Assembly: GCF_029215995.1 (NCBI RefSeq)
Contig: NZ_JAEMVB010000002.1
Location: forward strand, 1-64,000
Reading direction: 5' to 3'
From: Sulfurimonas sp. SAG-AH-194-L11
Lineage (GTDB): Bacteria; Campylobacterota; Campylobacteria; Campylobacterales; Sulfurimonadaceae
Length of the DNA: 64,000 nucleotides
Position 1 is the stretch's first letter. The number at the start of each line of letters is the position of its first letter. This document shows positions 39,985 through 55,526 of the stretch, piece by piece. A model generated the notes under the pieces. It was not told the origin of the DNA and made no database searches. It saw only the letters and a list, made by a program, of their open reading frames with translations. A program made the position numbers and the translations under genes.

Positions 39985-40815
39985 ATGAAAATAGCAATAA
40001 TTGGACTTGGTCTTATGGGTGGATCCCTTGCCATGAGCCTTCAAAAAGAAAAATATGTTACACAAATTGTAGGGTATGATCATAACGAAATACATACTAA
40101 ACAGGCTATAGAGTTAGGTCTAGTTAACAGCATTGCAAGTTTCTCTGAGGTAAAAAAATGTGATGTTATTTTCTTAGCTATTCCAGTTGATGGCTTAATA
40201 GCAACTTTGCACAACTTAACTGATATAAGTAAAAATACTACTATCATTGACCTTGGGAGTACTAAAGAAAAAATCGTACAGAGTGTTCCATCTAAGATTC
40301 GTAAAAACTTTGTTGCAGCACACCCAATGACAGGTACTGAAAACTTTGGTCCTCTTGCAGCAGTTAAAGGTCTTTATGAAGATAAGGTTGTAGTCTTATG
40401 TAATTTAGAAGATAGTGGAAAACATCAAGCAGACACAGCCAAAATGATCTTCTCATCTTTAAATATGAGACTCACTTTTATGCGAGCTGATGAGCATGAC
40501 CGACATGCTGCATTTATCTCTCATATGCCCCATGCTGTCTCATATGCTATAGCCAACACTGTTATGAGACAAGAGAACAAACATAATATATTGGCTCTCG
40601 CTGCTGGTGGATATCGTTCTATGAGTCGCTTAGCGAAAAGTTCACCTTATATGTGGGAGGACATCTTTCGACAAAATAAAACGAACCTTTTAGAGTCTAT
40701 CACTATCTTTGAGGATGAGTTAGCACACCTAAAGAGTGCTATAGAAAATGATGACTGGGAGAGAGTACATCAAGAGATGCTTGATGCAAATAAGTTACAC
40801 GATATTTTAGACTAA
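39985..40815 (+). CDS. tyrA: Prephenate dehydrogenase
   Basis: IAIIGLGLMGGSLAMSL, DLGSTK, AAHPMTGTENFGP, ISHMPHAVSYA. Start at MKIAII preferred over ORF-track 39949. Confidence 0.94.
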   Translation: MKIAIIGLGLMGGSLAMSLQKEKYVTQIVGYDHNEIHTKQAIELGLVNSIASFSEVKKCDVIFLAIPVDGLIATLHNLTDISKNTTIIDLGSTKEKIVQSVPSKIRKNFVAAHPMTGTENFGPLAAVKGLYEDKVVVLCNLEDSGKHQADTAKMIFSSLNMRLTFMRADEHDRHAAFISHMPHAVSYAIANTVMRQENKHNILALAAGGYRSMSRLAKSSPYMWEDIFRQNKTNLLESITIFEDELAHLKSAIENDDWERVHQEMLDANKLHDILD

Positions 40816-42242
40816 GAAATATCGTACTTTTTAAGAACCTCTTTTAACTTCTTCTTATTCAATGCAATTTTTTCTTTAGAGTAAATATTATTTTCTAAAA
40901 TTCGCACTAACTCTTCTACATCTTTATCACTATCTTTAAATGCTAAAAGTTTAATCAAAAGTACTTTTTCATCTTTTATATCAAATGTTTTAGACTTTTT
41001 AGAAAATTTAATTCCTCTTAAAAGCATGAGTGCTATACCTATACTAAGTCCTAAAATAAATGCCAAAGAGAGATAAAGATAATTGTTTTTCTCGACTACT
41101 TCTCGCTTAGCTTCCTCTACTGTTTTTGGTACAACAGCTTCGCCGCGAGTGATACTGAGCTCTTTTTTTGCCATATTTCCTTGTACTTTTATCTCTATTG
41201 GTTCTGTTTTTATAGTTTTAACTTCTTTCGTATTTATATCAAAATATTTTAATTCAAATGTAGGAATAGTAAAATCTCGCTCACTCACAAAAACAATTTT
41301 TTGACTTAATGAATTGCTTGTAAGTTGTATCTTTTCATCAAAAATATTTACATCAGATATAAAAGGTTTAAAACTCTCTATATCTTCAAGGTTTCCTACA
41401 CCAGTAATCTTTATCTTTAAATTCACTGCTTCATTTGGATTTATTTCTCTTTTATCAACATCTGCTTCAATTGTAAAATCACCAATTATTTTCACATTCT
41501 CAGGAAGAGCTTTAACACTAATATCTAATGTGTTTGAGTAGTATGTTCGCCATCTAACTTGTGCAAAACCTCCCATCCAATCAGTTGAAGCAACTCTTGA
41601 TGCAACTTTAAGTTCTGCTGCTTCTATACTAAGCTTACCCTCTCTTTGTGGTGCTAACTCATATACAACTTTAGTTGTCATATACTTACTATCTTGTGTT
41701 CTTTGTGGCTGAGACTCAGACTTAATCCAAAAACCTTTAAACTCAGGAGCTATAAACTTGCTATCAGCAACTTGTATTCCCCTTTTTTGCTTGAGTAGTA
41801 GTGTTAACTTAAAAGGTTCTCCAACATAGAGCTCTTGAACTGAACTCTTAAACTCAAGTACAAAGTCCGCACTTAAGTCCTGTGTTCTTGGTAAAACATT
41901 TACATCTACACTATTTGAGTACTCTATTTTTCCATCTATCTCAACTCCAACAGCAGCTATAGTACAACTTTTTTTAGGTGTAAACTGATAGGATAAAGTA
42001 TAACTCTTTTTATACTCTCCATTTGTAGCCTGTATACTTGTCTGGGAGCCAGTCGCTGTGATTTGATTTCCACAGATATCACTCATAACAGGTTTTTTCA
42101 CCCCTGAACCAGTGATAGTTAGCATATAAGTTGTAGTATCTCCTACAAACACATCATTAGGTGATACACTCGCTGTTACTCCTGCACTAAGTGAACTTAA
42201 AAATAGTATTAAAAGTGTTAGTATTTTACCAAGGTTTTTCAT
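40812..42242 (-). CDS. BatD-family protein (copy 1)
   Basis: Signal peptide, BatD-type beta domains, C-terminal TM. Start MKNLGKIL preferred; its start overlaps the KPW* end of the upstream gene. Confidence 0.88.
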   Translation of the reverse strand: MKNLGKILTLLILFLSSLSAGVTASVSPNDVFVGDTTTYMLTITGSGVKKPVMSDICGNQITATGSQTSIQATNGEYKKSYTLSYQFTPKKSCTIAAVGVEIDGKIEYSNSVDVNVLPRTQDLSADFVLEFKSSVQELYVGEPFKLTLLLKQKRGIQVADSKFIAPEFKGFWIKSESQPQRTQDSKYMTTKVVYELAPQREGKLSIEAAELKVASRVASTDWMGGFAQVRWRTYYSNTLDISVKALPENVKIIGDFTIEADVDKREINPNEAVNLKIKITGVGNLEDIESFKPFISDVNIFDEKIQLTSNSLSQKIVFVSERDFTIPTFELKYFDINTKEVKTIKTEPIEIKVQGNMAKKELSITRGEAVVPKTVEEAKREVVEKNNYLYLSLAFILGLSIGIALMLLRGIKFSKKSKTFDIKDEKVLLIKLLAFKDSDKDVEELVRILENNIYSKEKIALNKKKLKEVLKKYDIS

Positions 42243-44097
42243 CTGTCTTATCCTCAAATTTATTATCATCATTTAGTCTATAAAGAAAAGTACTCTGCTG
42301 TTTTGAGAGTTGTTTTAACCATTTTTTCTCTTCTTCATCACTCATCATATCTTTCATATCTTTTACTTGAGACTGCTTTTGCTCTGTACTCTTTTCATCT
42401 TTTATCTCTTTGGTTTTATCTTCTTTCTTCTGCTCTTCATCTTTCTTTTTTTCATCTCTCTTTTCTTGAGATTTTTCTTGCTCTTTTTTCTTCTCATCTT
42501 CACTTTTTTTATCAGACTTTTTATCATTTTTAGACTTGTCATCTTTACTTTGAGACTTATCTTTTTTATCTGACTTATCTTTCTTATCTTTCTTATCTGA
42601 CTTATCTTTCTTATCATCTTTATCAGATTTATCTTTTTTATCTTGCTTCTCTTTTTTGTCTTTCTTATCCTTGTTGTCTTTCTTATTCTCTTTTTTCTTT
42701 TGCTCTTGTATCGCTTTTTTTACAGCTTCTAAATTTTCTCTTACATCTTTATCTTCTTGTAGTGTTAGAGAATTTTCATATGCCTCTACTGCCTTGTCAA
42801 GCCCATCTTTTGTTTTAGCTTTTACATAAGAATTTCCAAGATTCGCATAATTTTTTGCCTGTTTCTCAGGTTCATCAAAATGTAGCTTTTCATATGCAGC
42901 TTGTGCCTCTTTATACTTTTTACGCTTATAAAGTGTATTTGCAATATTATAATCAGCATCTGCATTTTTACTTATACTTGAGTACTGCTCATATAACTTT
43001 TGTGCCTTGTTATACTCCCCTCTTTCATAGGCAGTTTTTGCCTTATCTAAAAGCATAAAGTCAGTTACTCCAGCCTTAGCATCTTGTGAAAAACCGAGTG
43101 CAAACACAAGGACAAAGAGTGGTGCCACACTTTTTGTTGTTTTTGTACCCCATGATGATGTCGCAAAAAGTAAAATGAAGAGAGCTAAACCTAAGGGGAA
43201 GTAAAAGAGTGGGATAAAGCGTTTAATCTCTTGAGACTTTAACTCTTTTTTCTCGCTATGTGCTTCTATCTCTCGGAGCATCGCCTGAATGTCTGCATTT
43301 GAGTTTACACTCTCTATATAAACACCACCTGTTTTAGTTGCAAGGGCACTTATGTTTTTATTGAGTTTTGAGATTAAAACTTTTCCATTAAGTTTTAAAA
43401 ATGAGCCATCTTCTCTTTTTATAGGAGCTCCTTTAGAAGTTCCAAGTGCTAAAACAAAAACGACTATATTTTTCTCTTTTGCATACTCTATTTCTTTAGA
43501 AAAGCTCTCACTATCGCCACCATCAGTTAGTATAAGTAAGTACTTTTTTGACTCTTTTTTTATACTCTTATCTACTACTTCTAACATTGAGAGAAAGTTT
43601 GTTCCCTTTTCAGTAATGGAGTTAGTTCTAAGTTCTCTTAGTAAAAATGCTACTGCATTACTATCAAAACTAAGAGGTGAAACGAGATAAGAATTCTTTG
43701 CAAAAGCTATCACACCTATTCTCTCACTAGGTGCTAGTTTTAACAACTCTAGTGCTTTTTGTTTGGCAAGTTTTAAACGGTTTGGGTAGACATCCTCAGC
43801 GAGCATCGAATCAGAGATATCGAGTGCCACCATAATGTCAGCACTTTTTGCTTTTACTTCTATAGTACCCTCATCGATGATAGGTCCACTTAGTGCGATA
43901 AGGAGTAAAATAGCTATGATTAAGAAAAGGATATTTCTCATTTTTAGACTTAAAGTATTGGCAGTTACTCTGAGTTTATCCATAACTTCACTACTAAAGT
44001 AACTCTCTTGTGATGATTTTTTTCTAAGCACAAAAGCAAACACTATAAGAAGTGGAACTAAGCCATAGTATAAAAATTCAGGATGTAAAAAGCTCAT
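42226..44097 (-). CDS. BatB/BatC fusion: VWA domain plus TPR (copy 1)
   Basis: MIDAS ALDISDSM, TDGGDSES; TPR region; Lys/Asp-rich tail ending EKPW. Confidence 0.92.
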   Translation of the reverse strand: MSFLHPEFLYYGLVPLLIVFAFVLRKKSSQESYFSSEVMDKLRVTANTLSLKMRNILFLIIAILLLIALSGPIIDEGTIEVKAKSADIMVALDISDSMLAEDVYPNRLKLAKQKALELLKLAPSERIGVIAFAKNSYLVSPLSFDSNAVAFLLRELRTNSITEKGTNFLSMLEVVDKSIKKESKKYLLILTDGGDSESFSKEIEYAKEKNIVVFVLALGTSKGAPIKREDGSFLKLNGKVLISKLNKNISALATKTGGVYIESVNSNADIQAMLREIEAHSEKKELKSQEIKRFIPLFYFPLGLALFILLFATSSWGTKTTKSVAPLFVLVFALGFSQDAKAGVTDFMLLDKAKTAYERGEYNKAQKLYEQYSSISKNADADYNIANTLYKRKKYKEAQAAYEKLHFDEPEKQAKNYANLGNSYVKAKTKDGLDKAVEAYENSLTLQEDKDVRENLEAVKKAIQEQKKKENKKDNKDKKDKKEKQDKKDKSDKDDKKDKSDKKDKKDKSDKKDKSQSKDDKSKNDKKSDKKSEDEKKKEQEKSQEKRDEKKKDEEQKKEDKTKEIKDEKSTEQKQSQVKDMKDMMSDEEEKKWLKQLSKQQSTFLYRLNDDNKFEDKTDEKPW

Positions 44098-45029
44098 TAA
44101 TTTTTCCTCCCATTTTTGTTTCGTACAAATACATATAGCATTAAAAAGAGTAGTGCTAAAGAGAGTGGATATATATAATAGTAACTAAGATATGTATAAG
44201 ACTCATTTTTTATATCTACTTTCTCAAGCTCATCTATCTTTTTATAAACCGCTTCTAACTCATCTCCAGTAGAGGCTCCAAACGCAACACCACCTGTCTC
44301 TTTTGCAATTTTGAGCAGTACGGCTGCGTTATACTCATTTTGATTACCTATGCCTATTGGATAGACTTTAACACCCTCTTTTTTTGCCATGTCAATCGCC
44401 ACATCAAGCGGAATCTTATCTACATTTGGTGAGGAGTAACCATCGGTAAGTAAAATCGCTATTTTCGACTTTGACTCACTCATTTTAAGTAGATTAACAC
44501 CTTGTGCGAGTGACTCATAAAGTGCTGTATATTTACCAGCCATACCAATTTGGAGTTGACTCACTATGCGAGCTAAAATATTTTCATCATATGTTAAAGG
44601 TGAAGCGATAAAAGAGTAAGCACCAAAGACTACAAGTCCCATGTTGTCACTCTTACGTTTTTTGATAAAGTCTCCAACTATAAGTTTAACTACATCAAAA
44701 CGGTTTTTAGCAGGATTACTTCTATCAAAACCACGTGCTTGCATCGACTGTGATGCATCTATTATAATAGCTATTTCATGCCCTTTTTTAGGTTCTAACT
44801 CATACGGTTCATCCTTTACAGGAGAACTCAAAGCAAGTATCATCAAAAAAATAGCTAAGTACTTTAAGATGAGAGGAAGATTAGAACTACTCACTCCCTT
44901 TTGCATAAACTTTGTTGCATGAGGAAAATAAAACGAAGGAAGTCTCATTTTGCAAAAAAACTCACAAAAGATAAACAGAGCTAGTAAAAGAAAAAAGTAA
45001 GGATACTCAAAGTAGATACCATTAAACAT
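44097..45029 (-). CDS. BatA-like VWA protein (copy 1)
   Basis: TMs at both ends, MIDAS IIDASQSM and LTDGYSS. Confidence 0.92.
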   Translation of the reverse strand: MFNGIYFEYPYFFLLLALFIFCEFFCKMRLPSFYFPHATKFMQKGVSSSNLPLILKYLAIFLMILALSSPVKDEPYELEPKKGHEIAIIIDASQSMQARGFDRSNPAKNRFDVVKLIVGDFIKKRKSDNMGLVVFGAYSFIASPLTYDENILARIVSQLQIGMAGKYTALYESLAQGVNLLKMSESKSKIAILLTDGYSSPNVDKIPLDVAIDMAKKEGVKVYPIGIGNQNEYNAAVLLKIAKETGGVAFGASTGDELEAVYKKIDELEKVDIKNESYTYLSYYYIYPLSLALLFLMLYVFVRNKNGRKN

Positions 45030-45435
45030 TTAAAATTCCTACATAGTTTTTTATGCTGTGTTTTGTCTCCTCACTAAAACTATCAACATCTTTTTTATAT
45101 TTATAAGTCTCTAACTCTTTTACTAAAGCAGAGTAGAGTTTTTTATGCTCCTCACTATCAGCCTCAAATAGAGCTCCATAAAGTGTGATTTCATATGCAG
45201 CTCTCTTTGGATTACTTAAATCAACTGCTTTTAACTGTTTTAAATACTCTGCACGAATATTAAAACTGTTTTTATTTTTAATATACTTATAGAGTAAATA
45301 AACAAGCACTAAAACTACTACAGATGCTATAAAAACAAGAGCACTAAAGTAGTATAAAGAGTACTCTTGTATCTCTATAAGAGGTTTAATATCATGTAGT
45401 GGTATATCTTTTGTTTGCATCTTATTTTCCCTCAA
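45022..45435 (-). CDS. Small membrane protein (DUF4381-like position)
   Basis: One TM, located between DUF58 and BatA genes as in MoxR-Bat operons. Confidence 0.7.
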   Translation of the reverse strand: MRENKMQTKDIPLHDIKPLIEIQEYSLYYFSALVFIASVVVLVLVYLLYKYIKNKNSFNIRAEYLKQLKAVDLSNPKRAAYEITLYGALFEADSEEHKKLYSALVKELETYKYKKDVDSFSEETKHSIKNYVGILNV

Positions 45436-46252
45436 AAAGTCTACGAAGTGCTACACTTGCATTTGTATCTGTATAAATTTTACTAAATCGTATCTGGTCT
45501 TTTCTGAGCTGTTTATAGAGAGCTCTATCATGTGCATGTACTTTTTTTGCATAAGCAACAACACTTGAAGCATTAAAGTCACCCTCTAATGTAGCTCCAC
45601 TTTCGGGGTCTACTAAAGATGAAAAACCCATTTTAGGTGGTTTTTCTTCTAGGTGGTCACGTACTATAAGAGCCACTACCTCATGTTTTTTTGCTAAAAG
45701 CTTAAAATCAGGTATCTCAAAAAAATCACCTATAACTAAGATGAGCGACTTGCGCTTGAGTCTCTTAAAAAGTGTGTCAGAGATTGCTTTAAAGTCTAGT
45801 TTCTCACCTATAGCATCAAAATTCAAAATCTCATCTACATTTTTTTGAATTTGATAGAGTTTTTTACTTGGTCTTGTGTTACTTATCATTCTGTCTGTGA
45901 AGATATATGAACTCAGTAAATCACCATTTTTAAGTGTTGAAAAACTCAGTAGTGCTGAAACTTCTGCTATAACTTCTTGTTTAAACTTTTTAGATCCAAA
46001 ATGTACACTTCCATTTAAAATAGAGACAATCACTACATTTAACTCTCTCTCTTCACGAAAGACTTTTATGTAGGGTTTTTGAAGTTTTGCTGTGATATTC
46101 CAGTCGATATGACGGATATCATCTCCAGGCATATACTCTCTAAGCTCGATAAAGTCATAGCCTTCACCTTGAAATATAGAAGGGTTGTTTCCCACCATTT
46201 CAGAAAATACTTGGCGTCTGGCTCTCACTAGAATTTTTTGTAGTTTGCTCAA
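45422..46252 (-). CDS. DUF58 domain protein
   Basis: GEGYDFIELREYMPGDDIRHIDWNITAKLQKPYIKVFREERE. Confidence 0.94.
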   Translation of the reverse strand: MSKLQKILVRARRQVFSEMVGNNPSIFQGEGYDFIELREYMPGDDIRHIDWNITAKLQKPYIKVFREERELNVVIVSILNGSVHFGSKKFKQEVIAEVSALLSFSTLKNGDLLSSYIFTDRMISNTRPSKKLYQIQKNVDEILNFDAIGEKLDFKAISDTLFKRLKRKSLILVIGDFFEIPDFKLLAKKHEVVALIVRDHLEEKPPKMGFSSLVDPESGATLEGDFNASSVVAYAKKVHAHDRALYKQLRKDQIRFSKIYTDTNASVALRRLFEGK

Positions 46253-46262
46253 AAGAAAAACC

Positions 46263-47210
46263 TTATGGAATTGCTACAGTTTCTAGCACTTTTTGAATGA
46301 TTTCATCACTTGTAATACCCTCAGCTTCTGCCTCATAAGTAAGTACAATACGATGTCTCATCAACTCTTTTGCAATGTATGCAACATCAATAGGTGTTAC
46401 AAAATCTTTACCTCGCATAAATGCCATCGCTTTAACTGCTTTAAACATATCTATACTCACACGCGGAGATGCCCCAAACTGTATAAACTCAGCAATATCT
46501 TCAAGTCCATACTCATTTGGATTTCTTGTCGCGTTTACAAGCTCTATCATATATTCTTCGACCTCAACATCCACATGTATCTTTGCTATACTAGCCTTAA
46601 GCTCATCTAAGTCCTCCGCACTAAGTACTGCATTTATCTCTTGAAAATTTCCACTAGAGATACGACGGGCTATTTCAAGCTCTTCACTTTTTGTGTTATA
46701 GTCAACTATGAGCTTTAGCATAAAACGGTCTAGCTGTGCTTCTGGGAGTTGATAAACACCCTCTTGTTCAACGGGATTTTGTGTAGCCATAACAAAAAAT
46801 GGTGGATCGAGTTTAAAAGTTGTATCACCTAATGTTACTTGTTTTTCTTGCATAACTTCAAGTAGTGCAGATTGAACTTTTGCAGGAGCACGGTTAATCT
46901 CATCTGCGAGTAAAAGGTTTGTAAAGATTGGACCTTTTTTGATTTTAAACTGATTGTTTTGGGGGTCATATATTTCAGCACCTAAGATATCTGATGGGAG
47001 TAAATCAGGAGTAAACTGAGCACGCTTAAAGTTAAGCCCTAGTGCTTTAGAAAGTGCATTTACAGTAGTCGTTTTTGCAAGACCTGGCACACCTTCTATA
47101 AGGATATGTCCCTCACACAAAAGTGCGATGAGAAGAGAGTCTATCATCTTCTCCTGACCAACAACTACTTTTGCAACTTCTTCTTTAACTTTTTGAATCT
47201 TACTTATCAT
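46263..47210 (-). CDS. MoxR-family AAA+ ATPase
   Basis: EGVPGLAKTTTVNALSKAL, FTPDLLPSDILGAEIYDP, ADEINRAPAKVQSALLEVMQEKQVTLG, ATQNPVEQEGVYQLPEAQLDRF. Confidence 0.97.
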   Translation of the reverse strand: MISKIQKVKEEVAKVVVGQEKMIDSLLIALLCEGHILIEGVPGLAKTTTVNALSKALGLNFKRAQFTPDLLPSDILGAEIYDPQNNQFKIKKGPIFTNLLLADEINRAPAKVQSALLEVMQEKQVTLGDTTFKLDPPFFVMATQNPVEQEGVYQLPEAQLDRFMLKLIVDYNTKSEELEIARRISSGNFQEINAVLSAEDLDELKASIAKIHVDVEVEEYMIELVNATRNPNEYGLEDIAEFIQFGASPRVSIDMFKAVKAMAFMRGKDFVTPIDVAYIAKELMRHRIVLTYEAEAEGITSDEIIQKVLETVAIP

Positions 47211-47301
47211 TACACTACACCTCTATTAATTTATGATGTAAGTATAATCCTTTGAGGTAAATACTTATGAAACACTTGGTTAATGAATGTTAAATATAAA
47301 C

Positions 47302-48306
47302 CTAATCTACCTTTGGTACTATATTTAAATTAATACCAAGAACTTTATTTATTCCTTGTTTAAGAATGTTTTGTTCAAAATGAATAGCTGCATTTTTATA
47401 CACATTGTTTATGGAGGAGTTATATCGTTCCTTAATAATATTTATTTTTCCACCAATTCGTTGATTATCTTCTTTAACACTAATCTTCATTGTTAAAACT
47501 GCTATCTCGATAACACTTTTGTTAATATTATCTTGAGTAGTAACTGTAATATCAATTGCATCATCTTCTTTTTTTACAACTGAAAAATTATTTTGAGCAA
47601 GGTTATTTTTTATTTTATCAACAAATAGAGAAGATTTTTTATCTCCATGTACATAAAATTTTAAACTACTAGAGACATGTAAAAACTTATCTTCGATATT
47701 AAAAATAAAATCTTGATCAATTTTTGAATTGTATAACTCGTCAATTGTCGATAATATTAAAACAGTTGGAAGTAGAGCTTTGGCTTTTTTAGACATTTTT
47801 TTAGCTAGGTTATACTGAGATACTTTATCTTTAAAAGTAAGTGTCTGCATTTGTTGTACTATCAATTTTTTCTTAACTTCTAGTTCTTCTTTTAAACCTT
47901 TTATAAATTTTTGCTTATCTGTTACTATCATTACAGCAAATTCTCTATAGCTTATTCTATATGATTTAATAACTTTATAGTTATTAATTTTAACCTTTTC
48001 CACTTTAGCTTTAATATCACTTTGTGTGATGGTATTTGAGTAATAATTATTAATCACTTTTTGCTTACTTTGAAAAGTAGACTCTATTTTTACACTTAAA
48101 CGTGAAATCATATCATTTAGGGCCGCTTTTATTGCTGCTTCTCGAGTTTTTGCAATTGCTAAACCATACATTGAAGTTGCAGTATCATTTGGAAGGACAG
48201 AGTATACCCAAGCAGGAGGAGGAGTTTTTTTTGGTACTGGTGCAGGGCTCGCCCCGCAACCATGAAGAAATATAAGTAAAGTGAGAGTAATACTAAATAT
48301 ATTCAT
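47302..48306 (-). CDS. LPP20-family lipoprotein (copy 1)
   Basis: Lipobox LHGC; PAWVYSVLPNDTATSMYGLAIAKTREAAIKAALNDMISRLSVKI. Confidence 0.78.
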   Translation of the reverse strand: MNIFSITLTLLIFLHGCGASPAPVPKKTPPPAWVYSVLPNDTATSMYGLAIAKTREAAIKAALNDMISRLSVKIESTFQSKQKVINNYYSNTITQSDIKAKVEKVKINNYKVIKSYRISYREFAVMIVTDKQKFIKGLKEELEVKKKLIVQQMQTLTFKDKVSQYNLAKKMSKKAKALLPTVLILSTIDELYNSKIDQDFIFNIEDKFLHVSSSLKFYVHGDKKSSLFVDKIKNNLAQNNFSVVKKEDDAIDITVTTQDNINKSVIEIAVLTMKISVKEDNQRIGGKINIIKERYNSSINNVYKNAAIHFEQNILKQGINKVLGINLNIVPKVD

Positions 48307-48308
48307 TA

Positions 48309-49370
48309 TTACTCAGTATTCATCTGCTTTTTCGCTTCATCTCTTTTTGCTATAAGTCTGTCTATTCTATTCATTGCTAAATCTATTTCTTCAATAGGTG
48401 AAACAGTTAATTCATCAGCTATAGTATATAGCTCTTTTGCTTTTGCAAAAGAACCTGTCGCTTCATTTACAACTCCAAAGTCATAAGCAACGGCATAACT
48501 TTTCCCATCTAGTTCATCCATTTGTTTTTGTAAAATCTTCTTTGCTTTAGTATAGCGAGCAACCTTAATATACTCTAATGCATTAGCAAAGTTTTCTTTT
48601 TGTGCATCCGTAACTGCATCTAGTTCAATAGACTTTAATAGAGTCACATTAAAGTATATGTAATTGGGTGTAAGCTTATAAACAAACTCTGTTGCGATTG
48701 AAGATGCAAGTCTATTAAGTGCTTGAGCCTTAGAAAGAATTTGTTTTGGAGCACTAGTTAATGTTAACAGCCCTAAACTAGTTTTTCCAGCTTTACATGA
48801 ATCACCACTATACTCTTTAGTAATCGTATCTGCATATATGATAGAACCACTCTCAACATTTATAATATTAATATTAGCAGATACTGCTGCTTGTGTTGTA
48901 TTACATGTTACTTTATAGTATCTATACTGTGCACATCCACCACCATCTTTGTAGTATCTAAGACATTTTTCTCGATCTTCTTTATAATGACCACTCTCTG
49001 CATTTGATGATACAACTTCACCACCGATTATTGCTTGAGCACCAATTATTTTACCTACTCTTGCACTTGTTGCTTCATCCATTAGCTCTGATGATTGTAA
49101 TTTTTGTTCTGCAATTACTTTTTGCATATCCTTACGACTTAAAACAGTAAAGTATCTTTTTTTATCAAGTTTTTGTTTTGCAATCTCTGCTTCAATTTTT
49201 CCAGAAAGCCCAACTGAGTCAGTTCTAAAGTTACTTACTGCAACTTTTTTCTTAGATGCCATTTCTCCAACTTCTGCAGGGTTTAGTGCCTTTATTCTAA
49301 CTTTTTGTGCACAACCTGACATTATTGCTATCGATACAAGAGCCACTGTTCCAATCTTAATTATATTCAT
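48309..49370 (-). CDS. CsgG-like lipoprotein with TPR-like C-terminus
   Basis: Lipobox MSGC; KKVAVSNFRTDSVGLSGKIEAEIAKQKLDKKRYFTVLSRKDMQKVIAEQ...GAQAIIGGEV. Confidence 0.78.
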   Translation of the reverse strand: MNIIKIGTVALVSIAIMSGCAQKVRIKALNPAEVGEMASKKKVAVSNFRTDSVGLSGKIEAEIAKQKLDKKRYFTVLSRKDMQKVIAEQKLQSSELMDEATSARVGKIIGAQAIIGGEVVSSNAESGHYKEDREKCLRYYKDGGGCAQYRYYKVTCNTTQAAVSANINIINVESGSIIYADTITKEYSGDSCKAGKTSLGLLTLTSAPKQILSKAQALNRLASSIATEFVYKLTPNYIYFNVTLLKSIELDAVTDAQKENFANALEYIKVARYTKAKKILQKQMDELDGKSYAVAYDFGVVNEATGSFAKAKELYTIADELTVSPIEEIDLAMNRIDRLIAKRDEAKKQMNTE

Positions 49371-49453
49371 TTATTTTCCTTTTTTGATTAAAAGAAGAAT
49401 ACACTTTTAAATATTAATATAACATTAAATACTTTAAAAAATGTTAGAATAAG

Positions 49454-50569
49454 TTATCTTATCTTCGCTAAGTTGCATATTAACTTTTTTACTTCTTTTA
49501 ATGATGTTAGTTCTTTTATCTCTATTTTATAAATAATTTCTTTATACTTTTGTATATCTTTTGCCACTAAAATAAAACTCAATTTTTCTAATGAATTGAT
49601 TTTGTGAATTCTTTTACAAAATAAATCTTCTTGAGCAACTCGATGCTTCAATCTAGGAAACTCAATTTTAGCAAGTATAAATCCTACTATAAATACTAGA
49701 ATATAATAAATATAATGTATATCTACTATATAATCCTCTTGAGAATCTAAGAGTTTTTCCTTTACAAAGTCTGGAGAGGATAATACTGCATTCACTCGAT
49801 GAAAATCTAAAGTTACTATTTTTTTCACTTTTAAATCAAAATACTCTAATTTAAAAGAGGGAATGGTAAAATTTTTATCACTCACAAAAGCAAACTTCTG
49901 ACTCCAAACACCTTTTTCTCCATCTTGAGTTAAGTCACTCTTTACAACTGCATTTTGTGTAAAAGTTTTAACACCATCTATACTAAAATCTATTGCAGCT
50001 AGACTAGAGAAGTTCCCAACTCCCTCTATCTGTATCTCTAAATTATAAGGTTCGTATGCTTTGTGCTTAGCTATGTCTTGTTTTACCCTAAGAGTAAACT
50101 CTCCAACAAGTTGTGCGGGAGTCTCTTTAATGATAAGAGATAGCGGTAACTGTTTCATAGGAGTGGAGATAAATGCTTCTACCTTTGAATCATCATAATG
50201 CCCATTAGTTGTTGAGTCTATAGACTCCTGTGTTGTCTTTTTCATAACTACATCAAAATCAAAAGAGATAGGACCCTCTTTTTTTACATAGGCTATATAC
50301 TTATAAGTGTTCACTCGTTTTGAGTTGTTTAGTCCTTGGCTCTCTTTTAGCAGTTGTATACTAAAGTGCTCATTATCTTGCACTGGCTTAAAGTCTATAG
50401 TGTAAAGCTCACTCGCATCACTAAACTCACACACATAAGTGAGTAAAATAGCCTCATTTACATATGCTGTTTTTTTATTTGCTTTGGCACTCCATTTATA
50501 TGTAGATGCACTTAAGTCAAATACTAAGACTACTAAAAGAACAACTATACTAGTAAGGCTTTTTTTCAT
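49454..50569 (-). CDS. BatD-like protein (copy 3)
   Basis: Close paralogue of 51701-52798 (LFCKRIH...SLEKLSFILV...IELKEL SLK VK LIC shared). Confidence 0.82.
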   Translation of the reverse strand: MKKSLTSIVVLLVVLVFDLSASTYKWSAKANKKTAYVNEAILLTYVCEFSDASELYTIDFKPVQDNEHFSIQLLKESQGLNNSKRVNTYKYIAYVKKEGPISFDFDVVMKKTTQESIDSTTNGHYDDSKVEAFISTPMKQLPLSLIIKETPAQLVGEFTLRVKQDIAKHKAYEPYNLEIQIEGVGNFSSLAAIDFSIDGVKTFTQNAVVKSDLTQDGEKGVWSQKFAFVSDKNFTIPSFKLEYFDLKVKKIVTLDFHRVNAVLSSPDFVKEKLLDSQEDYIVDIHYIYYILVFIVGFILAKIEFPRLKHRVAQEDLFCKRIHKINSLEKLSFILVAKDIQKYKEIIYKIEIKELTSLKEVKKLICNLAKIR

Positions 50570-50603
50570 TTAAACTATATCTTTATAAAATTCATAAATA
50601 AAC

Positions 50604-51605
50604 TTAAATATCAAGCCCTAAAACTTTAAAAATACCCTCTTTTTCTATAAGTGTGTTAAATTTAAAAGCTACATTTTGTTTAGCTATAGCAAAACTTTGT
50701 GAGGATTGACCTATGATTTGTAGGGTATTTGAACCAACGATAACACCTCTGTAATCTTTTGTTTTTATAGTTATCTCGCTACGAGCTAACCAAAAACCAT
50801 ATGCTTGTGCTTTTTCAATGTTGTTTGATACATAAATACTAAAGTCCATTGCACCTTTAGACATTTTGATCTTTAATCGTTTCTCACTAATACCTTTGGC
50901 AATAGCTGACTTAAGATTTGTAGCTAAGTCATTTGAAAATATAGAAAAACTAATGTTTTGTACTATATCTTGGTATGCTGTACTTATCCCCTGTGTTTTA
51001 CGTATATACTCATCTCCTTCAAAAGAGGGATTAAGTACATTCATAACGATAAGAGTGTTTGGAAGAGTTTGCAAATTTTTCTTTTGAGTTTTATAAAAAA
51101 ACAGTTTATCAAGAGCACTCGCATTTTTTAAAGAGTTTTGAGCACTTTTTATCAGTTTGAACTTTTGATCTAACTCATGGAGCATACTTTTAAAGAGTTT
51201 TTCCTTGTTTGACTTTATTAAAACTGCATAATGCTTAAAGCCCAGAGACTCTGCATTTAAAACTTCATAACTACTTATACGAAGTGCTTGTACTTGACTT
51301 GTAATATCACTTTTATAGACCCCATCAGAGCTATTAATTCGCCCCTCTCTAACCTCAGTCTTTGCACTATAATTTGAAGAGATAGAGAGACTCAATGTTG
51401 ATGCCATATAAGAGAGTGCTTCGGCTATTGCTTCTTTTTTATCTCTACCCTCTCCTAAGGCATACAACTCTGTTGCATTCGAAAGTGGAGGATTTGTATA
51501 CCATGAGGGAAGACTCTTCTCTTTAACTACAACTTGTGGTTTAGGAGTACCACAGCCCCCTAGTATAAATGTAATACTTACTAATACTAAAAATATATAC
51601 TTCAC
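50604..51605 (-). CDS. LPP20-family lipoprotein (copy 2)
   Basis: GTG start gives signal with lipobox LGGC; PSWYTNPPLSNATELYALGEGRDKKEAIAEALSYMASTLSLSI. Confidence 0.8.
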   Translation of the reverse strand: MKYIFLVLVSITFILGGCGTPKPQVVVKEKSLPSWYTNPPLSNATELYALGEGRDKKEAIAEALSYMASTLSLSISSNYSAKTEVREGRINSSDGVYKSDITSQVQALRISSYEVLNAESLGFKHYAVLIKSNKEKLFKSMLHELDQKFKLIKSAQNSLKNASALDKLFFYKTQKKNLQTLPNTLIVMNVLNPSFEGDEYIRKTQGISTAYQDIVQNISFSIFSNDLATNLKSAIAKGISEKRLKIKMSKGAMDFSIYVSNNIEKAQAYGFWLARSEITIKTKDYRGVIVGSNTLQIIGQSSQSFAIAKQNVAFKFNTLIEKEGIFKVLGLDI

Positions 51606-51700
51606 TTCACAAGCCTTATCTATTAATCTGTTCTCATGTTTGGGAGACTTCACCAAGGTTAAAACAAGTATTTTTAGTATCGATTATAGTTAAATACTAT

Positions 51701-52798
51701 TTAACCGCATATTAAGTTTTTAACTTTTTTTAAAGACTTGAGTTCTTTTAACTCTATTTGAGAGATAAGTGCTTCATACTTTTTCGCATCTTCATTTACT
51801 AAGATAAAACTCAGTTTTTCTAAAGAACTCGCCTCATGAATACGTTTACAGAAGAGTTCTTTTTGGGTCTCTTGAGTTTTTTGTTTAGTGAACTTTATTT
51901 TTGCTAGTAAAAAACCTGCTAAAAATGTAAAGATATAATAGATATAACTCCTATCAAATGTAAATGTTTCTGGTATAGGGTCTAAAAGTTGCTCTTTTGT
52001 AAACTTAACAGGTGTTACTTGTATATCCACACCCTTAAACTCTAATGTTTTCATCTTCTTCTCTTTTAGGTCAAAGTAGTGAGTTTTCCAAGGGGGAATT
52101 GTAAAACTTTTATCACTCACAAAAGCAAACTTCTTTTTCCATGTACCTTTATAGCCATCAGCAGTTAAGAGTATCTCCTCTTTTGCATCTTCACTAAAGA
52201 CTGTAACGCCATCTATCTTATACTCAACATCTTTAAAAACTTGAAAATCCCCTAAACCACTTACACTAAACTCTAAATGATAGGGTTCATAGGCTTCTAT
52301 CTCTGTTTTATCTTTTCGCACACTAAGAGTAAAGACACCTACTTTGTTACTACTTGTCTCTAAGATATTTACTTCTATATTTTCTTGTTTATACGGATAG
52401 AGAGAAAACTCTTCGTAGTTTGCATTATCACGACCAAGCATTCCATTTTCTATGGAGTCTTTATTTGTCTTTTTCATAAGTGTATCGAGTGCTAATGTAA
52501 ACTTACCACTTTTCTTCACAAAAAGAACAAAGTCATACTCATTTATCTTTTTTCCATCTACAATTTTTTCATCTTCTCTGAGGATTTCTATTTTATAGTC
52601 TTTATTATCAACACTTGGGTTAAACTCTATCACATACAACTCAGCACTATCACTATACTTACATACATAGTGCAGGTGTATCGCTTCATTTATGTGTGCC
52701 TCTTTTTTATTAACTTCTAAACTCCACTCATACTCAGAAGCTTGCAGTAAGTATGTAAGGAGAAAAAGTAGTATAAACTTACCAAGGTTTTTGTTCAT
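51701..52798 (-). CDS. BatD-like protein (copy 2)
   Basis: Signal peptide MNKNLGKFILLFLL, BatD-like domains, C-terminal TM; overlaps end of the BatBC gene. Confidence 0.83.
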   Translation of the reverse strand: MNKNLGKFILLFLLTYLLQASEYEWSLEVNKKEAHINEAIHLHYVCKYSDSAELYVIEFNPSVDNKDYKIEILREDEKIVDGKKINEYDFVLFVKKSGKFTLALDTLMKKTNKDSIENGMLGRDNANYEEFSLYPYKQENIEVNILETSSNKVGVFTLSVRKDKTEIEAYEPYHLEFSVSGLGDFQVFKDVEYKIDGVTVFSEDAKEEILLTADGYKGTWKKKFAFVSDKSFTIPPWKTHYFDLKEKKMKTLEFKGVDIQVTPVKFTKEQLLDPIPETFTFDRSYIYYIFTFLAGFLLAKIKFTKQKTQETQKELFCKRIHEASSLEKLSFILVNEDAKKYEALISQIELKELKSLKKVKNLICG

Positions 52799-54227
52799 TT
52801 ATTTTCCTTTTATTTATAAGTTCATACTGCTTAGAACTCAGTTTTGCCTTGCCTGTGTTTAGAGAGATACTTGTCTCTTGTTTACTCTTTTTTGCCTTTT
52901 CACTTGCTCCATTACTAGCAGCTGCACTCACTTTCATATTTGAACTTCCACCCTCTTTTTTTTTCTTCTGAGTGCTCTCATTTTTTTTCGCTAACTTGGA
53001 TTTTTTAGGACTTTTTTGTTGCCCCGTTGTCATCTGCTTCTCCTCAGCCACACCACGAATAAACTTCAAGTTTTCATCTGCTACTTTTGTATACTGTAGT
53101 GCTAAAGATTTTCTATAAGCGATGCGTGCTTTTGCATACTCTTTTAAACGGACTAAAGAGTTTGCACTATTATAATATACAACCGCTTTTATCTCTGCCT
53201 TGTTTGATTTAACATTTCTAAACGAAGATAAAGCTTTTTCATACTCTCCAGCTTTATAGAGGGAGACCCCCTTGTCAAAAGCTAGCCTATTTTCATTTTT
53301 TATAAAGTCCAGAATATCCGCTTCAACAGAGACCCCTAAGAACAACAATAGTACTACTATATAGCGTTTAAGAGTAGTTACACTCACTAAAAATACAATG
53401 AGAGCTAAAGTAACAAGATAGTAAAAGAGCTCTACATTTTGAACAACCGTAACATTGCTTTTATACTCACTATCTCTTTGAGAGTGCAGTGTCGAGATAA
53501 TCTCACTGAGCGAATGAGTATAAACTCCTCCACTCACTTGACTAATAATACTAATAGCACTATTTTCACGACTCACGACAATATCTTCCATCTCATCTTT
53601 AAGCAAATCTCCATTTGCTAATCTTAAGGTACCTCCACTTTGTGTTGCTATCATCAGTATGTTTACTTCTAAGTGATTTTGTTTTGCATACAAAGCTTCA
53701 TCTTCATAGTTTAACTCATCTCCCCCATCTGTAAAGATAACAACACTTACCCTTGGTGATTTTGACATCTTTCTTGCAAGAATTAAAGCGGGCATTATAC
53801 TACTCCCTTTTGTCATTATAAGTTTTTCATCAAGCATATTAAAAAGGTGTAAAAGAAGCTGTGTATCTTGTGTAAGTGGTGAGAGGATGATAGCATTTGT
53901 AGTAAAACCAAGCACTCCAAAGCGACTCTTTTGCTCTACTTTTACTAACTCTGCTAAGGTAGTTTTTGCAAACTTCAAACGCGAGGGGCTTATATCTTGT
54001 GCCTGCATAGAGTAAGAGAGGTCTATTGCTATAACTACATCATTAAGAAGCTCTTGTGTTTTAACAGGTTCTTGTTCTATGACAGGACGAGTTAAAGCCA
54101 AAACTATCAACATAAAGGTAGTGATATAGCCATACGATGTAAAACGCAGTACTCTAAAGTCTTTTTTCATAAATGCTACTAGTAAAAAGAGCAGTAGCCA
54201 AAGATACTCAGGGTTGAGTAGACTCAT
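52779..54227 (-). CDS. BatB/BatC fusion: VWA plus TPR (copy 2)
   Basis: MIDAS AIDLSYSM, TDGGDE; TPR; ends NEQKPW. Confidence 0.9.
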   Translation of the reverse strand: MSLLNPEYLWLLLFLLVAFMKKDFRVLRFTSYGYITTFMLIVLALTRPVIEQEPVKTQELLNDVVIAIDLSYSMQAQDISPSRLKFAKTTLAELVKVEQKSRFGVLGFTTNAIILSPLTQDTQLLLHLFNMLDEKLIMTKGSSIMPALILARKMSKSPRVSVVIFTDGGDELNYEDEALYAKQNHLEVNILMIATQSGGTLRLANGDLLKDEMEDIVVSRENSAISIISQVSGGVYTHSLSEIISTLHSQRDSEYKSNVTVVQNVELFYYLVTLALIVFLVSVTTLKRYIVVLLLFLGVSVEADILDFIKNENRLAFDKGVSLYKAGEYEKALSSFRNVKSNKAEIKAVVYYNSANSLVRLKEYAKARIAYRKSLALQYTKVADENLKFIRGVAEEKQMTTGQQKSPKKSKLAKKNESTQKKKKEGGSSNMKVSAAASNGASEKAKKSKQETSISLNTGKAKLSSKQYELINKRKINEQKPW

Positions 54228-55138
54228 CTCTTAATCTCCCTATAGAGTAAAAAAAGTAAAAGTCCACAGGCTAAAAGTAGTAAACTTTGAAAATAGTACT
54301 CTTTTAACTTATACTCTTTTGAGCTAATCTTTGATGATTCGAGTGCATCTATAGCATTGTAGACATTTTGTAACTCTTTTGCACTCACTGCACTATAGTA
54401 TACACCCCCGCTCTCTTTAGCAATTTTTTCCATTAAACTCGAGTCCGCTTCACCTATAGCGATAGTATAAATCTTTATAGCTGCATCTTTTGCAAGTGAC
54501 AGAGCGGCTTTTGGTGATATAGAGCCACTATTATGCTCTCCGTCACTTAGTAGTATCATAACCTTACTTTTTGCATGTGAGTGTTTAAATGCTCTTACAC
54601 CCATAGCAATGCCCTCTCCTATAGCTGTGTTTTGACCAGCCATTCCCTCATTTAGATAAGAGAGCATGTCAACGACTATCTCTTTCTCATATGTAATAGG
54701 TGAGGCAATAAATGCAAAGTCTCCATACAAAACTATCCCTACATTATCACTCTCTCTATTTTTTATAAACTTTTGTGCAACTATTTTAGTCAAAGCAAAT
54801 CGAGATAATCTTTTACCATTACTAAACTCATCTTCAACATCAAAACCCGAAGCATTCATAGAGCCACTAGCATCTATAACTAAGACTATATCTTTTCCAT
54901 TACGATTGAGAGGATTTGACTTATCAACGATGATAGGTGAAGCGAGTGCTATACACAGAAGTATAAAGATGAGAATTTTTACAATCCACTCTATCTTCAT
55001 AAAGTTGCGTTTAACAGGTAAAAACTGTAAGTGCACGAAGTATCGTTGCTGTAGGTACTCTCGACATCGGTATAAGCACCAGATGATAGGTATAAGCAAA
55101 AGAATAAGATATGGATATTCAAAACTATAGTAATTCAT
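54224..55138 (-). CDS. BatA-like VWA protein (copy 2)
   Basis: MIDAS VIDASGSM, LSDGEHNSG; TMs at both ends. Confidence 0.91.
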   Translation of the reverse strand: MNYYSFEYPYLILLLIPIIWCLYRCREYLQQRYFVHLQFLPVKRNFMKIEWIVKILIFILLCIALASPIIVDKSNPLNRNGKDIVLVIDASGSMNASGFDVEDEFSNGKRLSRFALTKIVAQKFIKNRESDNVGIVLYGDFAFIASPITYEKEIVVDMLSYLNEGMAGQNTAIGEGIAMGVRAFKHSHAKSKVMILLSDGEHNSGSISPKAALSLAKDAAIKIYTIAIGEADSSLMEKIAKESGGVYYSAVSAKELQNVYNAIDALESSKISSKEYKLKEYYFQSLLLLACGLLLFLLYREIKR

Positions 55139-55279: not shown

Positions 55280-55355
55280 GTCTTGTTAGCTCAGCTGGTA
55301 GAGCACGTCACTTTTAATGATGTGGCCGATGGTTCGAATCCATCACAGGACACCA
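55280..55355 (+). tRNA. tRNA-Lys (TTT), CCA encoded
   Basis: Full cloverleaf GTCTTGTTAGCTCAGCTGG...CACTTTTAATG...GGTTCGAATCC...ACAGGACACCA. Confidence 0.97.
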
Positions 55356-55451
55356 TTTTTTTTATTTGCACTTCAGTTTAAAGTTCACTTACTATATGTA
55401 AGCTTCACTTGAAACTTCAGCACAACTAAATTAAAAACCAACTACAAGAGT

Positions 55452-55526
55452 GGCCCCGTCGTCTAGCGGTTAGGATCCATGGTTTTCATCCATGTTACAG
55501 GAGTTCAATTCTCCTCGGGGTCACCA
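55452..55526 (+). tRNA. tRNA-Glu (TTC), CCA encoded
   Basis: GGCCCCGTCGTCTAGCGGTTAGGAT, CATGG-TTTTCAT-CCATG anticodon arm, CGGGGTCACCA. Confidence 0.97.

Follow-up and report, generated by a model that had tools for sequence, protein, structure and literature searches.

MoxR/Bat operons, in which the Bacteroides aerotolerance (bat) genes accompany a MoxR ATPase of the MRP subfamily, are known from, for example, Bacteroides fragilis, Leptospira biflexa, Francisella tularensis and Riemerella anatipestifer. They are widespread and, to our knowledge, have no agreed function. Here, we analyzed a MoxR/Bat locus of the deep-sea bacterium Sulfurimonas sp. SAG-AH-194-L11 (assembly GCF_029215995.1). 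The window, which is the whole stretch of DNA analyzed, covers positions 1 to 64,000 of contig NZ_JAEMVB010000002.1, and the locus occupies positions 40812-55138 of its minus strand. Mutation of bat genes lowers aerotolerance in B. fragilis, and L. biflexa showed neither growth nor morphology defects after batABD had been deleted (PMC3557215). In R. anatipestifer, survival under stress is influenced by MoxR (PMC11834572).

Like the described MoxR/Bat operons, the Sulfurimonas block brings together MoxR, a DUF58 protein, a BatA-type VWA protein, a VWA-TPR protein and BatD, with BatB and BatC being fused in the Sulfurimonas block. Unlike these operons, it has two complete ancient modules with one MoxR, three BatD genes and outer-membrane lipoproteins. 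The NorQ/NorD system likewise pairs a MoxR-type AAA+ ATPase, in that case a hexamer, with a VWA partner bearing a metal ion-dependent adhesion site (MIDAS), and the C-terminus of NorD is one of its two contacts with the NorQ ATPase (PMC13036017, PMC9976466). This system illustrates the way in which force can pass from a MoxR-type ring to a VWA partner (PMC13036017). However, NorD is one VWA protein that serves one enzyme together with NorQ, whereas the block has four VWA proteins that are predicted to be periplasmic and encodes no metalloenzyme client. RavA/ViaA of Escherichia coli also combines a MoxR ATPase with a VWA partner tied to membrane complexes, but it is a single pair without BatD or TPR and belongs to another subfamily; the window MoxR reaches 23 bits against the RavA model, for which the cut-off is 681. 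The domains of CsgG, FlgO-FlgP-FlgT and LpoB-type lipoproteins recur in the CsgG-like and LPP20 proteins of the block. As in the curli exporter CsgG, the window protein has a CsgG domain, a lipobox and a CsgG-fold match, but the block is devoid of curli and flagellar genes and its CsgG-like protein adds a C-terminal TPR region and four invariant cysteines. In the literature on Bat genes in Campylobacterota and on MoxR together with CsgG, LPP20 or LpoB, searched with little reach into subscription papers, we found no description of the two-module layout. The best explanation of the present data, to which we give a little better than even confidence, is that one cytoplasmic motor serves two diverged envelope modules, the second of which probably acts on outer-membrane lipoproteins. 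The genes of the block in the order of transcription, and the tRNA genes at its upstream boundary, are as follows.

54224-55138, minus strand: BatA2, inner-membrane VWA protein of cassette 2 and first gene of the array (Pfam VWA 83 bits; MIDAS DASGS/SDG; tandem-type clade, support 100)
52779-54227, minus strand: BatBC2, VWA-TPR fusion of cassette 2 with C-terminus ...NEQKPW (VWA_2 56 bits; TPR_2 33 bits, above the cut-off; MIDAS DLSYS/TDG)
51701-52798, minus strand: BatD3, BatD of cassette 2 (without a Pfam match on its own; assigned by family and profile-profile evidence)
50604-51656, minus strand: LPP20b, LPP20-family lipoprotein with lipobox LGGC (PF02169 34 bits)
49454-50569, minus strand: BatD2, extra BatD that looks to be of another cassette-2 lineage (47% identity to BatD3; tree support 96)
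48309-49370, minus strand: CsgG-like outer-membrane lipoprotein with C-terminal TPR region (PF03783 49 bits; lipobox MSGC; AlphaFold2 model and Foldseek)
47302-48306, minus strand: LPP20a, second LPP20-family protein (PF02169 31 bits; N-terminal hydrophobic stretch, with a Cys in the non-standard context LHGC)
46263-47210, minus strand: MoxRa, MoxR-type AAA+ ATPase (AAA_3 216 bits; AAA_lid_2 65 bits)
45422-46252, minus strand: DUF58 protein, adjoining moxR, no transmembrane segment predicted (PF01882 147 bits)
45022-45435, minus strand: DUF4381-like protein with one transmembrane segment (PF14316, window protein below the cut-off)
44097-45029, minus strand: BatA1, VWA protein of the core cassette (Pfam VWA 65 bits; MIDAS DASQS/TDG)
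42226-44097, minus strand: BatBC1, VWA-TPR fusion of the core cassette with C-terminus ...DEKPW (VWA_2 59 bits; TPR matches below the cut-off; MIDAS DISDS/TDG)
40812-42272, minus strand: BatD1, BatD of the core cassette (PF13584 93 bits)
55280-55526, plus strand: divergent tRNA-Lys/tRNA-Glu pair, a conserved upstream boundary of the operon that recurs at the same place in other loci

The sequence-only reading of this DNA had described 13 co-oriented minus-strand genes, with two VWA, VWA-TPR, BatD cassettes around a MoxR-DUF58-DUF4381-like core and a lipoprotein block. Indeed, 13 co-oriented open reading frames (ORFs) fill the span, the ends of which coincide exactly with the BatD1 stop (40812) and the BatA2 start (55138), and Pfam backs both cassettes. 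The inventory of cassettes, core and lipoproteins stood with two amendments: there are three BatD genes, not two, BatD2 having been overlooked, and the lipoprotein block consists of two LPP20 proteins and one CsgG-like protein. The DUF4381 match of the window protein is weak (13.7 bits against a cut-off of 27.2), and all 17 homologues scanned match PF14316 at E ≤ 1 (best E 8e-4). Taken singly, BatD2 and BatD3 both fall below the Pfam BatD cut-off; 18 of 25 members of their family match BatD, and the family profile matches the BatD1 profile with 99.9% probability (E 1.4e-31). Six neighboring pairs overlap (BatA2/BatBC2, BatBC2/BatD3, DUF58/DUF4381-like, DUF4381-like/BatA1, BatA1/BatBC1 and BatBC1/BatD1), the largest intergenic gap is about 91 bases, and on the minus strand a terminator-like site was found only once, within the LPP20b gene, the counts of such sites being near those of shuffled sequences. 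A single transcript for the whole block is therefore plausible.

Tandem duplication, as which the locus had initially been described, is not borne out by the data. The two cassettes do share the BatA-BatBC-BatD order and are adjacent and co-oriented, as a recent local duplication of one cassette would leave them, but the identity between them is low (BatA 41%, BatBC 29%, BatD 27-28%). A tree of 109 BatA proteins gathers all 32 BatA2 sequences of the tandem type in a single clade (support 100), which joins BatA2-like proteins of other Campylobacterota families, apart from the BatA1 clade (support 99). The BatBC and BatD trees are concordant with this, the two cassettes being ancient paralogues and not unrelated imports, and the split between BatA1 and BatA2 predates the family. 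Gene order also opposes a recent duplication. In tandem loci, the tRNA-Lys/tRNA-Glu pair lies on the opposite strand directly upstream of BatA2. Where cassette 2 lies elsewhere, the pair is found directly upstream of CsgG-LPP20-MoxR (L061, L067, L071, L163, L164) or, in L090, of MoxR itself. Cassette 2 therefore heads an operon that other genomes have without it. Because the paralogues are ancient and cassette 2 heads a pre-existing MoxR operon, we regard the cassettes as ancient paralogues that were brought together, and a recent duplication as extremely improbable. In two related genomes (L105, L106), about 3-4 kb of other DNA separates MoxR from DUF58.

To establish how common the layout is, 135 Sulfurimonas genomes were searched, 15 of which are near-closed, i.e. 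consist of one or two contigs. The gene-neighborhood survey showed a layout that is frequent among Sulfurimonas without being universal. Tandem-type BatA2 was found in 73 of the 135 genomes (59-100% identity) and BatA1, at E ≤ 1e-90, in 122. BatA2 and BatA1 lie on one contig, 5.3-15.2 kb apart, in 52 of these 73 genomes; another 17 are drafts with the two genes on separate contigs, some of these assemblies probably being broken, and in 4 BatA1 is missing. Since the two-cassette layout is seen again in dozens of genomes, it is not due to chance. The core order MoxR-DUF58-DUF4381-like-BatA-BatBC-BatD is found again across the genus and in the majority of the other families sampled. Another 35 genomes have a different, stand-alone BatA-BatBC-BatD set without MoxR, the BatA of which is 38-44% identical to BatA2. 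The stand-alone loci inspected adjoin tlpA, dnaK and, mostly, a formate dehydrogenase cluster. In several Sulfurimonas (L092:5068-8679, L157, L158) the cassette lies between the gene for a TlpA-like thioredoxin and the formate dehydrogenase cluster, a possible link to periplasmic redox enzymes.

None of the 135 genomes has both types of cassette 2. Each near-closed genome has exactly one type (10 tandem, 5 stand-alone), none having both or neither; given the margins, the chance of zero overlap among these 15 genomes is 1 in 3003 when relatedness is ignored. A stand-alone BatA query against 19 tandem genomes revealed no recognizable stand-alone copy, with a third copy in G081 (39%) being of uncertain type, and no Bat genes were present at the tlpA site in the tandem genomes inspected. 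On the BatA1 tree, the tandem and stand-alone states require 5 switches, at least 3 of which are forced by well-supported branches, so the two types behave as alternatives. They thus replace one another repeatedly, and this points to a need for a second module, which either of them would be able to provide. We also considered relocation of a stand-alone cassette into the MoxR operon, and rejected this since tandem BatA2 and stand-alone BatA form separate clades; the trees thus indicate two old lineages that exclude each other rather than one set that moved. The distances of BatA1 and BatA2 correlate over 29 genomes (Mantel r 0.69; 0 of 2000 shuffles as high).

Both cassettes are intact and under purifying selection. 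The MIDAS motifs DxSxS and [TS]DG, the only two checked, are retained in all four VWA proteins of the window, as the sequence-only reading had claimed. Its view that neither copy is decayed agrees with the ratios of nonsynonymous to synonymous change (dN/dS), which were calculated for the window genes against three close relatives and are approximate, synonymous change being high. The ratios were 0.03-0.06 for MoxR and DUF58, 0.05-0.08 for BatA1 and BatA2, 0.10-0.16 for BatBC1 and BatBC2, 0.13-0.15 for BatD3 and 0.19-0.24 for BatD1, which places the BatA, BatBC, BatD1 and BatD3 genes at about 0.05-0.24; BatD2 had the highest values (0.34-0.38). BatD2 was considered as a fresh copy of BatD3, and this was rejected on the basis of a quick tree in which BatD2 clusters with BatDs of other Sulfurimonas (support 96). 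Because of this clustering, BatD2 looks to be what is left of another cassette-2 lineage.

The topology of the proteins was judged from simple hydropathy and charge counts. Because the loop between transmembrane segments 1 and 2 of BatA and BatBC is positively charged, their VWA and TPR domains are predicted to be periplasmic. BatD is predicted to consist of a beta-sandwich region, one transmembrane helix and a short helical tail; Foldseek searches with BatD3 returned only generic Ig-like sandwiches with low TM-scores and indicated no function. MoxR is taken to be cytoplasmic, its lone hydrophobic stretch probably corresponding to the Walker A region. Among about 80 BatBC homologues, nearly all intact core, tandem and stand-alone members end in Pro-Trp, mostly as EKPW in the core, mostly as INKR...EKxPW in cassette 2 and as INKGY...PW in stand-alone sets. 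This conservation suggests that the C-terminus serves as a docking tail.

The sequence-only reading had further proposed that two VWA sets share one MoxR and have specialized with different clients. Ten near-closed tandem genomes encode one MoxR each at E ≤ 1e-30, versus two or three Bat modules, so two VWA sets have one MoxR available. Sharing of one motor by both modules is, in our view, well supported by these genomes. An arrangement that fits with MoxR acting in trans occurs in family f5, where MoxR and the Bat modules are on separate contigs, and in genome G053 a cassette-2-type module has its own MoxR-DUF58 after it, which ties such modules to MoxR. The window genome departs from this pattern. 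Its assembly (1.8 Mb, 79% complete, 72 contigs) contains a second MoxR on contig C34, MoxRb, which is 62% identical to MoxRa and is followed by DUF58b, BatA3, BatBC3 and BatD4. This brings the genome to three Bat cassettes and two MoxR proteins in total, and "single MoxR" is true of the locus, but not of the genome. As for specialization, the divergence between the cassettes and their long co-inheritance fit with it; the part of the proposal that concerned different clients is not carried by these data. The third locus (L004:7862-13168) has its own MoxR and DUF58 and no DUF4381-like gene, and its BatBC3 is without [TS]DG and without the C-terminal PW.

The stretch between cassette 2 and MoxR encodes lipoproteins in most tandem loci. 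At least one gene for a CsgG-like, LPP20, LpoB, COG3014-type or similar lipoprotein was found there in 23 of 26 tandem loci examined. Across loci the stretch is a mosaic in which three gene sets were seen: CsgG and LPP20; LPP20c, a COG3014-type protein, a DUF1425 protein and LpoB; and a second CsgG-like protein, a GNA1162-like protein and LPP20. The names COG3014-type, second CsgG-like and GNA1162-like are our own reading for proteins without a Pfam match. Even the closest relatives differ, with BatD3-BatD2-CsgG-LPP20b in G147 and LPP20b-CsgG-LPP20a in G153. The AlphaFold2 model of the window CsgG-like protein matches CsgG (Foldseek E 9e-7), FlgT, LpoB and GNA1162 at TM-scores of only about 0.4-0.5, which places the protein in the CsgG/FlgT/LpoB/GNA1162 fold group. 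Searches with Pfam revealed none of the curli partner genes csgA, csgB, csgE and csgF among the 13 genes of the block. Besides the lipobox cysteine, the family of this protein (window 48309-49370) has invariant cysteines at 136, 146, 156 and 192, which could form disulphides. In some Sulfurimonas (L036:5612-12316, L108, L109, L114) the LpoB, DUF1425 and LPP20 set within the MoxR/Bat block ties a predicted peptidoglycan-synthase activator to it. In G002 (L043:8774-11749), two ORFs take the place of the lipoproteins, one of them being large and sensor- or chemoreceptor-like.

Based on these data, the MoxR AAA+ ATPase, the soluble DUF58 protein and the membrane-anchored DUF4381-like protein would form the motor unit. 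BatA1-BatBC1-BatD1 would be module 1, the ancestral core partner, and BatA2-BatBC2-BatD3 with the extra BatD2 would be module 2, the ancient paralogue at the operon head beside tRNA-Lys. In each module the VWA and TPR domains would face the periplasm from inner-membrane anchors, with BatD adding periplasmic beta-sandwich domains. ATP-driven remodelling by MoxR may then be relayed across the membrane to the envelope module that is engaged at the time, as NorQ drives NorD, and module 2 would most likely let the same motor act on the CsgG-like, LPP20 or LpoB-type lipoprotein assemblies encoded beside it. The weakest step of this proposal is the last one, as the candidate role of outer-membrane lipoprotein complexes as module-2 clients is drawn from gene order and from the CsgG-like fold group. 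A bolder version, which we consider rather doubtful, is that the single MoxR is a shared motor acting through interchangeable ancient adaptors, the core together with exactly one type of cassette 2, and that one of these adaptors would energize the assembly or remodelling of CsgG/LPP20/LpoB-type complexes from the cytoplasm.

Several observations weigh against a shared motor with a lipoprotein-directed second module. The CsgG-LPP20 pair also precedes MoxR where the site is without cassette 2, and the lipoproteins are therefore no less a part of the core than of module 2. Such lipoproteins are absent from 3 of the 26 tandem loci (G010, G095, G002), and the predicted periplasmic topology relies on simple hydropathy and charge counts. 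In G010, a close relative of the window genome, BatBC2, BatD3 and the lipoproteins are lost, BatA2 and BatD2 are kept, and a DsbA-like ORF with a CAWC motif lies in the gap; module 2 therefore looks dispensable there. The third locus of this relative is decaying, with an in-frame stop in its MoxRb gene, and G010 (L091, which is contig C8; L035:306-3418) seems to be losing both extra Bat systems. That this relative survives with most of module 2 lost, and that the same motifs are kept in both modules, would also be expected if the modules were redundant or served for dosage on the same clients. We regard this as rather unlikely in view of the deep divergence of two modules that both stay under purifying selection, and of the near-closed genomes, every one of which keeps exactly one cassette-2 type besides the core.

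The source of the driving force for cassette 2 could also be a different one. MoxRb is intact in the window genome and could serve module 2 in place of the adjacent MoxR, and all five near-closed stand-alone genomes have some second MoxR. This last finding is itself a point against the shared motor, although several drafts show only one MoxR, and a rule that a stand-alone cassette needs a second MoxR was rejected because drafts such as G020 and G026, with one MoxR, contradict it. However, MoxRb adjoins its own DUF58-BatA3-BatBC3-BatD4, the ten near-closed tandem genomes are without a second MoxR, and the MoxRb gene of G010 has the in-frame stop, which makes it quite improbable that MoxRb drives cassette 2. 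Alternatively, cassette 2 might need no MoxR and act as an adhesion or scaffold complex of VWA, TPR and BatD parts in the periplasm, which came to lie beside MoxR by accident, the operon head near the tRNA genes being permissive. The stand-alone cassettes beside tlpA, dnaK and formate dehydrogenase genes, without MoxR or DUF58, agree with this, as does the variation of the mosaic among close relatives, which is that of an insertion-prone spot. Yet the linkage to MoxR in at least 52 of 73 genomes, together with co-inheritance, and the G053 module followed by its own MoxR-DUF58 render independence from MoxR improbable.

The present data provide the first gene-order lead that we found from the MoxR/Bat system to outer-membrane lipoproteins of the CsgG/LPP20/LpoB type, which is a lead and not a demonstration. 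Two diverged modules with one MoxR, mutually exclusive types of cassette 2 and the accompanying lipoprotein genes together make up a natural experiment on the partners and clients of this system.

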